Source: Planctomycetales bacterium (GTDB taxonomy: Bacteria; Planctomycetota; Planctomycetia; Pirellulales; Pirellulaceae). From it: DNA of 64,000 bases. Location of the stretch: contig JAGQPF010000728.1 in assembly GCA_020426845.1 (NCBI GenBank), forward strand, positions 1 to 64,000, written 5' to 3'. Both the position numbers and the translations under genes were made by a program. Below are positions 37,828-49,776 of the stretch, one piece after another. Each line of letters begins with the position of its first letter. The stretch's first letter is position 1. The notes under the pieces were generated by a model. The model did not search any database. It was not told the origin of the DNA and saw nothing but the letters and a program-made list of their open reading frames with translations.

Positions 37828-37875
37828 GTCGCGCGTAGCAGCTGACGCCAGCCAAGAGAAGCCGCATGCTGCGCG

Positions 37876-38236
37876 AGTGAGGCGAGATCCCAGGGGAGGC
37901 GCCGGCTCCCTGGGCTTGCGCCCAGGGCTAACTTCTGTCGCCCCTTCGGCCCTTCGGGGCTGTTGCGCGCGAGAGATGCGAGATCTCAAGGGAGGCACCC
38001 GGCTCCCTGGGCTTGCGCCCAGGGCTAACTTCTGTCGCCCCTTCGGGGCTGTTGCGCGCGAGAGATGCGAGATCTCAAGGGAGGCGCCCGGCTCCCTGGG
38101 CTTGCGCCCAGGGCTAACTTCTGTCGCCCCTTCGGGGCTGTTGCGCGCGAGAGATGCGAGATCTCAAGGGAGGCACCCGGCTCCCTGGGCTTGCGCCCAG
38201 GGCTAACTTCTGTCGCCCCTTCGGGGCTGTTGCGCT
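37876..38236. repeat. Tandem repeat, 89-bp unit, about four copies
   Basis: Units begin ctccctgggcttgcgcccag at 37906, 38003, 38092 and 38181. The last two intervals are exactly 89 bp; the first is 97 bp owing to an extra 'ggcccttc'. Each unit carries two palindromes (ctgggcttgcgcccag and ccccttcgggg) and the string gcgcgagagatgcgagatctcaaggga. The copies are nearly identical, so the expansion is recent. Confidence 0.9.
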
Positions 38237-38256
38237 CGAAGCGCGCCTCGGCCGGC

Positions 38257-40807: not shown

Positions 40808-41230
40808 TCAGTCTCGACGGCGCAGCAACACATGCTTGCTGAGCTCGCTCACCAACAAGTTGAGCTCGACGGGCTTGGTCAAATAGGCCGCAATGCCCTG
40901 CCGTCGCAGTCGGCTTTCCAGCGCGGGGTCGGAACAGCCCGTCAGCACAATGATCGGCGCCGACTCGGTCTTGGGATTGTGTTGCAGGCAGGCGATCACT
41001 TCCTCTCCGCTGGCATGCGGCATCATGATGTCGGTGATAATCGCGTCCGGCTTTTCGGTGATCCCACGCCAGATGCCGTGCAAGCCATGGTAGCCCTCCA
41101 TGACATGGACACGGTAGTCGTGGAGCCGGCGTTTGATGGCGTCGATCACATACGGCTCGTCGTCAATCACCAGCAGCTTGGGTTGGCGAACTCGAATACG
41201 CGGCTCGAGACGATTCTTGAGAGTGCTCAC
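40808..41230 (-). CDS. Single-domain response regulator
   Basis: The 140-residue protein is a receiver domain: acidic pocket LLVIDDEPYVIDAIKRRL, phospho-acceptor Asp in DAIITDIMMPHASG, Thr in IIVLTGCSD and Lys in YLTKPVEL. There is no output domain. A 20-residue basic N-terminal extension precedes the domain. No histidine kinase is adjacent; the sense of signal flow is unknown. Confidence 0.88.
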   Translation of the reverse strand: MSTLKNRLEPRIRVRQPKLLVIDDEPYVIDAIKRRLHDYRVHVMEGYHGLHGIWRGITEKPDAIITDIMMPHASGEEVIACLQHNPKTESAPIIVLTGCSDPALESRLRRQGIAAYLTKPVELNLLVSELSKHVLLRRRD

Positions 41231-41580: not shown

Positions 41581-43911
41581 CTAAAAGAACCCGCCACCAC
41601 CACCGCCCAACCCGCCGCCGGACTTCGGCAGATAGAGCGGCTCGAGCTCCGCCACGGTCAGGAAGCCGTCTCCGTCGACGTCCAACTGCGCGAAGGACGG
41701 ACCGTCTGCTTTGGGTGACCGATACTCCGACGCACTGAGTCGACCGTTGCCGTCCGCGTCTTGCTGTGCGATCAGCTTGCCAGCCAAACGAGTCCACTCT
41801 GCGGGTTGCTGCTCGTCAGGATCGTCACCATAAATCGGGGCCGCAGGCGACGGATTGACGAGCGCAGGCGCTGGCGCGTTGATGCCGGCGCCGTTGGGCG
41901 GCTCAACCTGCTGCGGCAATTGTGCTTGCTGTGGCGCTTCCGCCTGCTGCGGAGGGCCCGTGTTGGGAATCGATTCCGAGAAGGGGCCGTATCGTTGAAC
42001 CGGCGCAGATCGTTGAATCGGCGTCTTTTCGATGGCCACTGTGAGGTCCGTCGTCGGGATGGCGGAGTCCGCCTGCACCGGAAGGTCCGCGTTGGGAATC
42101 GATTCCGAGAAGGGGCTCATCCGTTCCACGGTGCGCCCTAGTGTGAGTGTCTCGGCAAGTTCCGTGGTTGGGATGGCAAGCACCTGTGCTGATGGCGGGG
42201 GCTCGCCGACTTGAACCGAACGATTCTGAGTCTGTGCCAGCAGGCTCGGTGGAATTTCGTAGCGAAGATTCAGATTGCCCGATGGCAAGTCGAGCCCTCT
42301 CTCGTCAAGCAGCTCGCCCGTTTGTGCAGGAGTTGGCGCCGGCGCCGCTCCTTGCTGAGGCGCGGGACCATCGAACGCTTGAGCCGCTCCGGCGTCCATC
42401 AAGGGTGGCTTGCTGGTCATCGGAATGCCATCAACCATCAGTTCACTCACCAAGATATCGTTGACGGGACCATTGAACAGAGCATTGAATGGGTCATTCG
42501 CTTGGGCGCCGTCCAAGACATCCGGCCCGGGTCCCGTTCCCGGACGCATGGCCGCGTCGACCCCGGCGTTTTGCGCGAGAGCGTTGTCGCCACGCACCAA
42601 AGGATCTGGTAACGGTCCGCTCTGCTCGAGGGGTTCTCCAATAATGGATTCCGTGACCGCCATGGGCGTGACCAGATCGGTGGCGAGCAGGATCGAATTG
42701 GCGGGAAGCGTGCGACTCGCCACCTTGCCTTCCCAATCACGCTTATCCAGCACCACTTGGCCGCTTGGATTGACTTGAACTTGAGCCAACACAACAGGCT
42801 GCAAGTTGCCGGCGATCGGCTCCCCGCGAACGACGGTCTTCGTGAGCAAGTAGGCCGTCGGAACTTCCACCTCCTCTTCCTCGGTTTGCACCAACTGACC
42901 GGCGATTTCCGAGAAGGCCGGATTAGGGGTCGTAAGGATGACCTGAGCTGTCTGGTCGTACGTTCGCAACAAGGTGACAGCCGAGCTTTGCTGCTGAATG
43001 ATGGCCGCTTCGGCATATCGAAGCGGAGCATTGGCTGGCGCCATGGTCAGCTGCAGGCTGGGGCGGTCGTAGTGGTAGCGGTCCCAATCCCATTGATACC
43101 ATTGCCGAACGTGGACAACGCGATTCAGCTGCGGCGCGGCGGAGAGGTGGAACAGCAGACTGGCCGAGGCGGCCATGGCGATCGCGCCCACGGCCACGCG
43201 ACCTCGTGTGCGAGGAGTCGCGACGATGCGGGGCAGCGCAATTGGCGCCGCCGCGTCGTCGCCCGAGTGCGGCGGAGCGATCGCCGCCGGAGCGATGTGG
43301 ACGCGGCCGTAGATCCGGTTGGCGCGCAACGAGCCGATCAGCGAGCCGAACACGCCACCGACTGCGACCCACCATAGCAAGGTGGGCACGCCGGCAGTCA
43401 GTCGCTCGTATCCGGCGTCGCCGCGCCAGGCATCCACTGCCATATAGAAGCTCCAGACCAGCAGCGACATGCTGCCTGCCCCAAGCACACCGGCCAGCGC
43501 GCGGTTGCGAAGCGGCCCGACTCCGCGACGATGGCTCCAGAACGACGTTCCGTACCACGAGCCAACGATCACAAACAGCGCCCACGTGACGGGCCGACTC
43601 AGCTTGTCGGGCTGCTGCGCCTGAGCCAACAAAAAGGACAGGCCGGCGCTCCAGAGCATCAACGGCAGCAACGAGACGTTCAGCCATCCCCGCTGCGGCG
43701 CCGGCCGAGCCGTGGCAGGCATCGTCAATCGAGCACTGGAAGAGTGCCTCAACGCCCGCACGCTGCGCTCGAAGTTGTCCAAGCGCATGCCGCGCCACAA
43801 TCTCCACACGCCGTGCAAGGCCACTGCCACAACGACCAGAGCCACCGCCAGCCAGGCGTCCCAGGTGTTGTAAGCGTATTGGTGGTCGTAGAACCAATAG
43901 TGGTAGCCCAT
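41581..43911 (-). CDS. Multi-pass membrane protein with SAF-like segment and C-terminal EF-hands (paralogue A)
   Basis: The 776-residue protein shows five or six membrane helices in residues 1-265 (LAVALVVVAVALHGVWRLW, LLPLMLWSAGLSFLLAQAQ, TWALFVIVGSWYGTSFW). A periplasmic or extracytoplasmic segment follows. Around residues 370-430, RGEPIAGNLQPVVLAQ, then KVASRTLPANSILLATDLV, resembles the SAF domain of CpaB/RcpC pilus-assembly proteins. A Pro/Gln/Ala-rich region leads to two EF-hand loops (DADGNGRLSASE, DVDGDGFLTVAE). It is strikingly similar to the gene at 43974-46022, sharing GYERLT, FYMAVDAWRGD, RRGVGPLRN and LAQAQQPD. Start ATG 43911. Function unknown. Confidence 0.75.
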   Translation of the reverse strand: MGYHYWFYDHQYAYNTWDAWLAVALVVVAVALHGVWRLWRGMRLDNFERSVRALRHSSSARLTMPATARPAPQRGWLNVSLLPLMLWSAGLSFLLAQAQQPDKLSRPVTWALFVIVGSWYGTSFWSHRRGVGPLRNRALAGVLGAGSMSLLVWSFYMAVDAWRGDAGYERLTAGVPTLLWWVAVGGVFGSLIGSLRANRIYGRVHIAPAAIAPPHSGDDAAAPIALPRIVATPRTRGRVAVGAIAMAASASLLFHLSAAPQLNRVVHVRQWYQWDWDRYHYDRPSLQLTMAPANAPLRYAEAAIIQQQSSAVTLLRTYDQTAQVILTTPNPAFSEIAGQLVQTEEEEVEVPTAYLLTKTVVRGEPIAGNLQPVVLAQVQVNPSGQVVLDKRDWEGKVASRTLPANSILLATDLVTPMAVTESIIGEPLEQSGPLPDPLVRGDNALAQNAGVDAAMRPGTGPGPDVLDGAQANDPFNALFNGPVNDILVSELMVDGIPMTSKPPLMDAGAAQAFDGPAPQQGAAPAPTPAQTGELLDERGLDLPSGNLNLRYEIPPSLLAQTQNRSVQVGEPPPSAQVLAIPTTELAETLTLGRTVERMSPFSESIPNADLPVQADSAIPTTDLTVAIEKTPIQRSAPVQRYGPFSESIPNTGPPQQAEAPQQAQLPQQVEPPNGAGINAPAPALVNPSPAAPIYGDDPDEQQPAEWTRLAGKLIAQQDADGNGRLSASEYRSPKADGPSFAQLDVDGDGFLTVAELEPLYLPKSGGGLGGGGGGFF

Positions 43912-43973
43912 GACGATCTGCCTACGTAAATGTGATTTGCATCAAGACGATCGGAGATCGCCAACTCGCCAAC

Positions 43974-46022
43974 TTATTGGGGATTTAGAACTTCGGCCTC
44001 AACTTGAATGTCAAGTCGATCGTCGTCTTGATAAAGAGCAGCTCCAGACCTCCGAGCTTTCGAGGCCAACACGACCGCGGGCGAGAATTCGGCCAGCGTC
44101 AGCATACCGTCCTGATTGGTGTCCTGCGCACGTGGCAGTGGCCACGCCAAATCCGGCAATACCGTGATCGTGGAGGTTTCCGAGTCAAATACGTTCGTCG
44201 TGAACTCGGCTTTGCCAATCAACCCATTGCCATCCAGGTCCAGCAATTCGAACGTCCGCAACATGCCCGTCTCAGTGGCGGTCCGCACATGCGGATTGGG
44301 AAGGCCATTGGGGAACAAGACATGTTGGAACTCGAGCGGCGACAGCATGCCATCCTGATCAATATCTTGAGCTGCGGACAAGGGCCAATTTACGTTCGGC
44401 ATCCGGACCCCGCGAGTGTACTCTGACTCGCGAATCAAGCCGTTGCGATCCTGGTCCAGCGAACCAAACAACAGTAAAACGGAAAAGTCTACGTTCGGCC
44501 CTTCGTCTTCCGGTCCGTTAATTTCATTGGCACCGAGTGGAAGCACGCCCTTTGAATTGGGCTGCTGCCCATTGTCATATTGTTGAATCGTTCCCGAGGC
44601 CAGTTGTGGCAGGGCCCGTGAAGGTCCCCGTGCTGGCATCGCCAGCTGCTGTCTCGGCTCGCCTCGATTTGCCGTGGCGACGTTGCCCAACAAGGTTTCG
44701 TCGACAACGCCCTCGGCGGCAGTCTCGGCCGCCAGTGCGCCCGTCGTCTCGACAGCTGGAGATGGGGCGCCCGCGCTCACGAGATCGCCGCGGCTGATGG
44801 CCGCGCCGCGGGCAAGATCGACCCTCGCCACCATTCCGGTCAGCTCCGCCGGGTCCGTCACGGCATCCGGAGGAACGTAGCGTTGCGGCGATTCGTGCGG
44901 TTTGGGCGGAACGTACGCCAAATGCAAGACAGCGCCCAACGGCTGCCCTGCCTTCACGGGACCGGCGACCGCTAAGAAGGGAATTGGCGCATTTGCGTTC
45001 GGGACTTGCTCCGCCAGTTGCTCGCTCAACAAAGGAATGGTGCTTTGGAATTGGTGCGTCGTGTCGAGCACCAAGTCGTCGGTAAGAGACAACGGAATCG
45101 GCAAGTTGATGTCACCGGGCCGAGCCGCCGCCATCGTGAGCACCAGCGGCCGGGGACGATGCGAAGCGAATCGCCAGTCGTAAAGGCGCCATTCGCGAAC
45201 GCGGACGGTTCGATAGACTTGCGGCGCAGCCGAAAGGTGAAACATCAAGCTTGCCCCGCACGCCAGCCAGATGGCTCCCCAAGCGGCGCGGCGCGGCCGA
45301 GTCGCCAACGGCAAGGACGCTAACGCTGACATATCCTTGTCACTTAAATCGGCGGCCCCCACGTCCGGCTCCAGGGCGAACGCCCGGCGGTACAAACTGC
45401 CTGCTCGATGCGCCCCGAGCAACGCTCCGAGTGCGCTGCCAACCGCGATCCACCATAGCAGCGTCGCGCCGCTGCCGGTCAGCCGCTCGTAGCCGGTGTC
45501 GCCGCGCCAAGCGTCGACCGCCATGTAGAACGCCCAGAGCAGACCGGAGACCGCCATCGCGCTGGTCGCGCCCGACCACGCCAAGTTTCGCAATGGGCCG
45601 ACGCCGCGCCGGCGACGCCAACGAGTCGTGCCATACCAGGCGCCAACGCCGACAAACAACGCCCATGTGAAGGGGCGGCTGAACTCGTCAGGCTGCTGAG
45701 CCTGCGCCAACAGCATCGCCATGCCACAGCTGATCAACATCAACGGCAACAGCGAGATCTGCAACACCCCAGTTGGTTGGTTGGCATGCTGGGCGGCATT
45801 TTGGGTGGAATGAGCCGCGGCGGTCGGGGCTTCGGCGCGTGACCACCGCAGACGACTGCCGGGCTCGCGACGGAGACGGCGCAGGCTCTGCTCAAAGCCG
45901 TCCGGACGCATGCCACGCCACAATTGAAAGACGCAGTACCAACAGGCCGCCACAATCACCAGTGCCACCACCAGCCACGGACTCCAGAAGTCGACGGCCA
46001 TGTCGTACTGGCGGTAGTACAT
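43974..46022 (-). CDS. Multi-pass membrane protein with SAF-like segment and four EF-hands (paralogue B)
   Basis: The 682-residue protein has the same plan as its downstream neighbour: helices in residues 1-265 (WLVVALVIVAACWYCVFQLW, LLPLMLISCGMAMLLAQAQQ), LMFHLSAAPQVYRTVRVREW, a SAF-like segment (VKAGQPLGAVLHLAYV, ELTGMVARVDLARGAAISRG) and a C terminus with four EF-hand loops (DQDRNGLIRESE, DIDQDGMLSPLE, DLDGNGLIGKAE, DTNQDGMLTLAE). The ATG at 46022 aligns with the paralogue start; 46049 is a less likely start. The 62-bp gap to paralogue A suggests one transcript. Probable tandem duplication. Confidence 0.75.
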   Translation of the reverse strand: MYYRQYDMAVDFWSPWLVVALVIVAACWYCVFQLWRGMRPDGFEQSLRRLRREPGSRLRWSRAEAPTAAAHSTQNAAQHANQPTGVLQISLLPLMLISCGMAMLLAQAQQPDEFSRPFTWALFVGVGAWYGTTRWRRRRGVGPLRNLAWSGATSAMAVSGLLWAFYMAVDAWRGDTGYERLTGSGATLLWWIAVGSALGALLGAHRAGSLYRRAFALEPDVGAADLSDKDMSALASLPLATRPRRAAWGAIWLACGASLMFHLSAAPQVYRTVRVREWRLYDWRFASHRPRPLVLTMAAARPGDINLPIPLSLTDDLVLDTTHQFQSTIPLLSEQLAEQVPNANAPIPFLAVAGPVKAGQPLGAVLHLAYVPPKPHESPQRYVPPDAVTDPAELTGMVARVDLARGAAISRGDLVSAGAPSPAVETTGALAAETAAEGVVDETLLGNVATANRGEPRQQLAMPARGPSRALPQLASGTIQQYDNGQQPNSKGVLPLGANEINGPEDEGPNVDFSVLLLFGSLDQDRNGLIRESEYTRGVRMPNVNWPLSAAQDIDQDGMLSPLEFQHVLFPNGLPNPHVRTATETGMLRTFELLDLDGNGLIGKAEFTTNVFDSETSTITVLPDLAWPLPRAQDTNQDGMLTLAEFSPAVVLASKARRSGAALYQDDDRLDIQVEAEVLNPQ

Positions 46023-46394
46023 TGCGGCTTGCCTTGTGCTAGTGGACACAGTGGGCCTCCATCGTAGGCGACCCGCGTAAGGCTCCCTAAAACCGTCGGG
46101 CAGCCCCCGGTGGTTTGACGACGGTCAGGTGGCCGGGGATTCCCCGAAGGGCCCGGATTTCACAAAGTGATGTCTGACTCTCGTGCCTTGTCGTGGGTTA
46201 TCCCATGAATGGTCGGATGGGGACAAGCTCCAAGTTTGTAACAACTTCACGACGGTGGCACGTCGTGGTGCAGTGGCAAAACCAATTCATAGGCTGGCAG
46301 CCTGTGATTGATGCTGATTGTGGATTTGAACACAGGTTGCAGGCTGGCAGCCTGCACCACGACAGTCTGCCAGACAGCAAACTTGTGCCACATA
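46023..46394. other. Intergenic region with palindromic repeat
   Basis: About 370 bp between two minus-strand genes. Positions 46260-46372 hold copies of the caggctggcagcctg repeat. The part near 46110-46150 (ggccggggattccccgaagg) is a strong palindrome that could fold in RNA. No gene supported. Confidence 0.55.
46260..46372. repeat. caggctggcagcctg palindromic repeats, two units
   Basis: Units taggctggcagcctgtgattg (near 46290) and gttgcaggctggcagcctgcaccacgaca (near 46336) belong to the family at 33190 and 56543. The end lies 23 bp from the stop codon of the SHD1 protein gene. Confidence 0.75.
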
Positions 46395-48224: not shown

Positions 48225-49049
48225 ATGCCTCACACCCAACATCTCCGCCACGGGCCGACGACGCCGGCGCCTCGCGATTCCTCGACTTTTCGGCTCGTGC
48301 ACCAATTTCTTCACGAACTAGCGCAGCCGCTCAGTGCGATCTCCAACTACGCCGGAGCTTGTCGGGCCAACAGTGAGCAGCTTCCGGATGAGCCGTCCCG
48401 ACTCGTCCAGCACTACGCCGGCATGATTGCCTCCGAGGCATTGCGAGCCGGGCAGATCGGCTCGTTGCTCAGCACGCTGGTGTGGCGACTCGGCAGCAAG
48501 GGACGCGAGCCGATCGATAGTATCCTCCGAGAGACTGCCCAACTCGTTGCCAGCACTCGTCGCCTGCCGCTGGAGTTCTCCGGAAGTTCCGGGGCCCTGA
48601 TCGACGATCCGGCGGCCTGCCAGCAACTACTGCTCGATCTGTTTGACGCGTTAGCGGCAAGGTGCGACGCACTTGACGTTCGCCTCGCCAACGCAAATGG
48701 GTATATTCATATCTGCATCGTGATGACACCCTCATCACAGGATGCCATGAAGCCGCCGTTCGAGCTCTCCAAGTTGACAGCTACCACGCGGAGCAATTTC
48801 GCCTCCGCAGGCTGTCGCCTTTGGCTCGTGGACGATCAAGAGCCCCGGGCGTCGAACACTTCCCCAACCACACCACATCCCACCTTGCACTTGCTGGTCC
48901 CCACCGAGCTCGGCCAAGCCGCCGACAACAAGCCCACCGATCCTGCGACGCTTGTCCTGTCGCCGGCCCTGCCGAGCAAGGTCAAGGTGCAGGATCAGGC
49001 GAGAAGCGGGGGGCGCCCAGAAATTCCTCCGTTAGACGACACAAAATGA
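48225..49049 (+). CDS. Degenerate FixL-type histidine kinase core without sensor
   Basis: The 274-residue protein has the FixL-type dimerisation/phosphoacceptor helix: FLHELAQPLSAISNYAGAC with His at about residue 30, then ALRAGQIGSLLSTLVWRL, as in HELNQPL-type kinases. The next segment DDPAACQQLLLDLFDALAAR aligns with the N-box region, but Asp/Ala replace the ATP-binding Asn, and no G1/G2 glycine boxes are seen. The tail is Ser/Pro-rich. It may therefore act as a phosphotransfer or phosphatase partner. The FixJ-like regulator starts about 100 bp downstream. Confidence 0.65.
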   Translation: MPHTQHLRHGPTTPAPRDSSTFRLVHQFLHELAQPLSAISNYAGACRANSEQLPDEPSRLVQHYAGMIASEALRAGQIGSLLSTLVWRLGSKGREPIDSILRETAQLVASTRRLPLEFSGSSGALIDDPAACQQLLLDLFDALAARCDALDVRLANANGYIHICIVMTPSSQDAMKPPFELSKLTATTRSNFASAGCRLWLVDDQEPRASNTSPTTPHPTLHLLVPTELGQAADNKPTDPATLVLSPALPSKVKVQDQARSGGRPEIPPLDDTK

Positions 49050-49146
49050 CGGCTCTGGCGACTCACTCGCAAGCTGCCGGTTTACATTGAATTCGGGTTC
49101 GGCCATTCCAGGCCAACCGACACTTGGATTGGAAAGGATTGCCCAA

Positions 49147-49776
49147 ATGCTGGAACACCCCACCATCTATGTTGTTGACGACGACGAGCAATGCCGCGAG
49201 TCGATGTGCGCCTTGGTGACCGCCAAGGGCTTTCACACCGAGGCGTTTCGATCCGGCGAAGAATTCTTGGCCTCGGCCGACTCCATTTCGGAGAACGGCT
49301 GCCTCATCACCGATTACAAGATGACGGGGATGACTGGCCTGGAGTTGCAGGAGGAGCTGGCGTCACAAAACTGTCACCTGCCCGTGATCGTGGTCAGTGG
49401 CCACGCCAACGTCTCGGTGGCGGTGCGAGCGATGGTCAACGGCGCGGTGATTCTGCTCGAAAAGCCGCACCCGGAGGCGGAGCTGATGGGCGCCATCGAC
49501 AGAGCGATCCATCAGTCCAGCCAACTTCGCGAGCGTCGCGAGCGCTTCAAGCACGTGCAGAAGTGGTGGGACGGACTCGATTCGGAGTCGCGCGAAGTGG
49601 CCCGCCTGCTGATTTCGGGGGCGCTCAACTCCGCGGTTGCGAGCCGCCTGAACTTGGGACTCCGCACGGTGGAGCGCCGCCGCCACGACTTGCTGAAGTC
49701 GCTGGGTGTCAAAACGGTCGCACAGCTGGCTCGAATGATGGCGTTGCTTGAGGACTCGGTTCCGCGCGAAGTGTGA
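49147..49776 (+). CDS. FixJ/LuxR-type response regulator
   Basis: The 209-residue protein has a receiver domain with acidic pair VVDDDEQ, phospho-acceptor Asp56 in LITDYKMTGMTG, Ser84 in VVSGHAN and Lys106 in LLEKPHP, then a LuxR-type HTH (SREVARLLISGALNSAVASR, LGLRTVERRRHDLLKSLGVK). It is the FixJ/NarL arrangement. Start ATG 49147 has a GGAAAGGA site; the 49087 start adds 20 residues outside the domain. Likely partner of the preceding kinase-like protein. Target genes are unknown. Confidence 0.85.
   Translation: MLEHPTIYVVDDDEQCRESMCALVTAKGFHTEAFRSGEEFLASADSISENGCLITDYKMTGMTGLELQEELASQNCHLPVIVVSGHANVSVAVRAMVNGAVILLEKPHPEAELMGAIDRAIHQSSQLRERRERFKHVQKWWDGLDSESREVARLLISGALNSAVASRLNLGLRTVERRRHDLLKSLGVKTVAQLARMMALLEDSVPREV

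Follow-up and report, generated by a model that had tools for sequence, protein, structure and literature searches.

The window analysed here, a stretch of 64,000 nucleotides from a contig of a Planctomycetales bacterium (Pirellulaceae), holds two adjacent open reading frames, P1 and P2, both on the minus strand, with P2 upstream of P1 and a gap of 62 bp between them. Their features, together with the basis of each assignment, are the following.

41581..43911, minus strand: P1, open reading frame of 776 aa with six transmembrane (TM) helices, a SAF-like segment, a long linker and two EF-hand loops
43132..43854, minus strand: P1 membrane domain, residues 20-260 (TM map and identity among family members)
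42652..42855, minus strand: P1 SAF-like segment, residues 353-420 (sub-threshold flgA_cterm match, in register with the CpaB SAF)
41644..41760, minus strand: P1 EF-hand pair, loops at residues 718 and 744 (Pfam and canonical loop scan)
43974..46049, minus strand: P2, open reading frame of 691 aa with six TM helices, a SAF domain, a linker and four EF-hand loops
45222..45977, minus strand: P2 membrane domain, residues 25-276, six TM helices, predicted N-out/C-out by the positive-inside rule
44775..44984, minus strand: P2 SAF segment, residues 356-425 (Pfam SAF over 386-423; profile-profile match over 356-425)
44088..44456, minus strand: P2 EF-hand tail, loops at residues 532, 562, 604 and 643 (Pfam and canonical loop scan)

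Both frames encode the motifs FYMAVDAWRGD, RRGVGPLRN and LAQAQQPD and their products are 46% identical over 360 aa (BLASTP, E 2e-78), which bears out the preliminary description of this DNA as carrying adjacent paralogues with a common membrane plan; judged by their sequences, P1 and P2 are tandem paralogues. On the 3' side of P1, 350 bp away and on the same strand, a receiver protein of the stand-alone response-regulator type is encoded (40808-41230, minus strand), and the gene upstream of P2 (46395-47954, minus strand) codes for a protein rich in Gly, Met and Pro that has two SHD1-type stretches, a segment resembling a zinc ribbon and a hydrophobic stretch at its C-terminus. Further on (48225-49776, plus strand), a histidine-kinase-like gene with a weak HisKA match (E 0.0018) adjoins a gene for a receiver plus LuxR-type regulator. 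An intergenic tandem repeat with a period of 89 nt occupies positions 37871-38241; similar arrays recur in this genome, with 62 matches spread over dozens of contigs; several lie at contig ends, and one adjoins a third paralogue (C301:112-348). Promoter and terminator scans returned nothing informative.

The protein family as found comprises three genes in the source genome, the third encoding a paralogue of 784 aa on a different contig (C301:600-2954), plus one full gene (L008, 736 aa, hereafter the MAG homologue) and one cut by the contig end (L009) in Arabian9_MAG_5, a Pirellulaceae MAG. In the latter genome, the near-identical N-termini of L008 (6023-8233) and L009 (4311-4601) and their similar upstream sequence suggest a recent duplication. 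When the genome collection was scanned with a single protein as query no match was obtained, and with an alignment as query only Arabian9_MAG_5 was recovered. Profile searches of overlapping samples, comprising 241 genomes at the level of the taxonomic family, 397 at order level, 398 at class level and 392 at phylum level, found members only in the source genome and Arabian9_MAG_5, and viral contigs and plasmids gave no family match. The weaker profile matches (E 0.0005-0.01) were at chance level for the number of genomes searched, and the two longest open frames among them were rejected as members, since we take them, as their sequences read, to be a ComEC-like protein (L030) and a histidine-kinase-like one (L023). 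Being found in two genomes only, the family should either be of very recent origin or have been sampled very rarely; on these searches it is very rare and lineage-restricted. Both carrier genomes are draft assemblies, the contamination of the source genome being given as 6.5%. No gene neighbour was common to the family loci examined, where contigs C301 and C125 are short, and, since the neighbours differ between loci, genome context is uninformative.

The multi-pass membrane part that had been described for P1 and P2 was recovered as six predicted helices in all four full-length members, and these helices carry many invariant polar residues. Summed over the four members, loops 1-2, 3-4 and 5-6 contain 33, 13 and 25 K/R residues, against 11, 7 and 7 in the N-terminus and loops 2-3 and 4-5. 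Because the positive charges are concentrated in the first set of loops, an N-out/C-out topology is predicted, with both ends, including the C-terminal tail, outside the cytoplasm. Identity among the three paralogues and the MAG homologue is 49-63% in the membrane domain, whereas it drops to 19-31% in the SAF region and 15-29% in the linker, so that the core function probably sits in the membrane domain. The dN values of this domain (0.31-0.49, against a dS of 1.2-1.4 that is near saturation) indicate that it is under purifying selection. Searches with it gave no family match in Pfam, NCBIfam or PHROGs and no PDB sequence match, Foldseek returned nothing meaningful, and a 440-aa model of P2 was poor (pLDDT 43), with helices in the membrane domain and an uninformative SAF segment. 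Given this lack of matches and the poor model, the core may have a transport or an enzymatic role.

Behind the last helix, the evidence for a SAF domain differs in strength from member to member. Against the curated Pfam cut-off of 21 bits (SAF, PF08666), the MAG homologue gave a full match of 33.7 bits and P2 a partial match of 22.2 bits (residues 386-423, positions 25-62); P1 and the third paralogue gave no Pfam SAF match, and at the place of the other members' SAF they matched FlgA-type profiles only, below threshold, the P1 match (flgA_cterm, E 0.021, at 353-420) being aligned in register with the other members. In profile-profile comparison, P2 residues 356-425 matched the SAF of Pirellulaceae CpaB (E 4.8e-5, probability 68%) and that of FlgA (E 1.9e-4, probability 47%); the SAF profile found no match among PDB sequences. 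In a Foldseek search with a model of the MAG homologue segment, of modest to low confidence (pLDDT 59), the first seven matches were SAF-type proteins, all with E-values >0.1, the top ones being FlgA, RcpC, type III antifreeze and NeuB-type proteins. A second structural comparison placed FlgA (Z 7.2) and RcpC (Z 6.6, 2.3 A over 61 residues) in a list nearly uniform in SAF proteins, whose SAF-type matches had Z-values of 5-7, which may be middling for small folds. The SAF-like segment of the preliminary description is thus upheld by profile in P2 and the MAG homologue and by the structural model in the latter, with P1 staying sub-threshold, and a SAF (beta-clip) fold, modelled for the MAG homologue segment only, is likely across the family.

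The same description had proposed a pilus-assembly-like complex, and the family could in principle be a CpaB/RcpC derivative that has gained a membrane platform, acting in the alignment or assembly of a Tad/Flp pilus. In fact, CpaB/RcpC (TIGR03177, PF16976, PDB 9gzr) provides the closest SAF profile and, like the proteins described here as predicted, has a periplasmic SAF anchored in the inner membrane; the CpaB equivalog TIGR03177 also matches two members weakly. Nevertheless, these scores (17.8 for P2 and 33.2 for the MAG homologue, with no match in P1 and the third paralogue) are far below the cut-off of 71 and below those of the genome's true CpaBs (180 and 90), and the RcpC domain (PF16976), found in both true CpaBs, was detected in no member at E up to 1. 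As part of the alignment subcomplex, CpaB sits in the inner membrane by a single helix at its N-terminus and has two domains in the periplasm (PMC13170226), SAF and RcpC; its gene has pilus genes as neighbours. The family, by contrast, has six helices and a long linker that leads to EF-hands or to a different tail. The source genome in fact encodes two such ordinary CpaBs, each with SAF and RcpC domains, one adjoining CpaA-like, CpaC-type secretin and CpaE-like genes (C544) and the other a prepilin peptidase gene (C194). It is beside these that the Tad genes lie; none was detected among the neighbours scanned in the window, nor at the remaining loci of the family, of which some are on short contigs. 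Moreover, SAF proteins occur in nearly all sampled relatives, several of them being CpaB, and yet the family was not found there. Those of unusual frame length were inspected in 60 relatives, and no multi-TM SAF protein was seen among them; from length and sequence start, we take the relatives' SAF proteins to be CpaB, FlgA, and sialic-acid-synthase-type and altronate-dehydratase-type proteins. A search of the literature available on SAF or CpaB in Planctomycetes found no report. A pilus function is in our judgement very improbable, and this part of the preliminary description is largely refuted.

FlgA, the flagellar P-ring chaperone (SAF/ChapFlgA), shares the SAF-type fold and was the best structural match to the MAG homologue model, and all four full members match TIGR03170 weakly, with scores far below the equivalog cut-off; FlgA, in contrast, is soluble and periplasmic and has neither a multi-helix membrane domain nor EF-hands.

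A low-complexity, disordered linker leads from the SAF-like segment to the tail, where, as had been noted, two canonical EF loops are found in P1 and four in P2, and two more in the third paralogue, making eight in the three paralogues (shuffled tails gave a mean of 0.003-0.005 loops and a maximum of 1). Pfam scores exceeded the cut-offs both in P1 (EF-hand_5, 27.4 against 25.9) and in P2 (EF-hand_1, 38.7 against 25.4), and Pfam backs the loops of the third paralogue as well; in each of the three, the paired loops are probably Ca2+-binding. In the MAG homologue, neither Pfam nor the loop scan found EF-hands; a short, beta-rich-looking segment in its C-terminal ~60 aa (VVVTKTDGAEVKGTLL...; VVVTKTDGAEVKGTLLTRNQTEVKLQTSRGVLVILL), with no Pfam match, replaces them. 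The possibility raised beforehand that homologues lack EF-hands and vary freely thus holds in part, for the MAG homologue lacks them, but no ligand position has been lost in the three paralogues. A resemblance to lanmodulin was considered on account of its periplasmic EF-hands and dropped, since its EF loops have proline at position 2 and those found here do not.

These differences in constraint allow a reading in which the core, the membrane domain, acts as a transporter, a channel or an enzyme, while SAF and the EF-hands were fused to it incidentally and evolve almost freely. The strong constraint on the membrane domain, the divergence of SAF and linker and the swapped tail agree with it, but canonical ligand residues are retained in all eight EF loops and the SAF-like segment persists in four of four full members, and we regard it as rather unlikely.

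Small secreted or periplasmic EF-hand proteins, such as EfhP (PMC9132961), Caulobacter CaBP (PMC13171946) and lanmodulin (PMC9260416), are precedents for canonical EF loops outside the cytoplasm, where those of the family are predicted to be, although they possess neither six TM helices nor a SAF domain. EfhP has been reported to mediate Ca2+ regulation (PMC9132961), and the family could similarly be a calcium sensor, in which Ca2+ on the EF tail would alter the SAF and membrane domains and switch a channel, a transporter or a signalling partner, the receiver protein at 40808-41230 being a candidate output. Such a sensor would fit the canonical loops of the three paralogues, the six conserved helices with their many invariant polar residues and the receiver gene 3' of P1 on the same strand. 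Against this, the receiver gene lies 350 bp from P1, no such gene was seen at the third paralogue (on a short contig) or beside the MAG homologue, and the MAG homologue has no EF-hands. Furthermore, periplasmic Ca2+ is cited in PMC9132961 as reflecting or exceeding outside Ca2+, and the loops could then be always loaded in Ca2+-rich water. A sensor is, all told, unlikely.

The reading we prefer, to which we give an even chance, is one of lineage-restricted inner-membrane proteins whose SAF docking domain faces the periplasm together with a tail that is exchangeable and in many cases binds Ca2+. It starts from the family as found, its predicted topology, the SAF-type fold in the modest-confidence model of one homologue and the canonical EF loops; from these we infer the cellular location, the Ca2+ binding and the docking role. 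The six TM helices would hold the protein in the membrane so that neither end lies in the cytoplasm, and a single SAF (beta-clip) domain, directly after the last helix, would lie in the periplasm, where it would probably dock a protein or an envelope partner, by analogy with FlgA and CpaB. A long disordered tether would then carry the exchangeable tail, which in the three paralogues would consist of paired EF loops, probably binding Ca2+, and in the MAG homologue of another small segment at the C-terminus. Because Ca2+ in the periplasm tracks the external level, it would more probably stiffen the tail or link it than act as a signal, and its role in the putative EF tail may be structural only. 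In such an arrangement, the membrane domain would be the conserved functional core, with SAF and tail as adapters tying it to the envelope.

Since the parts are real and no tie to pili was found, the family represents a new combination of familiar parts, and not a new machine, to which an undescribed membrane domain is added. None of the SAF proteins examined from the sampled relatives combined six TM helices, SAF and EF-hands. SAF domains, which are known chiefly from the assembly of pili and flagella, can thus occur in unrelated membrane proteins, which calls for caution in annotating SAF proteins as pilus parts. A bolder proposal, which we hold to be quite improbable, is that a tail switched by Ca2+ is linked through a periplasmic SAF adapter to an unnamed six-helix core, which would give external calcium control over the core in one planctomycete lineage. 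If it were true that the tail switches the core, the family would represent a bacterial design for periplasmic calcium sensing.
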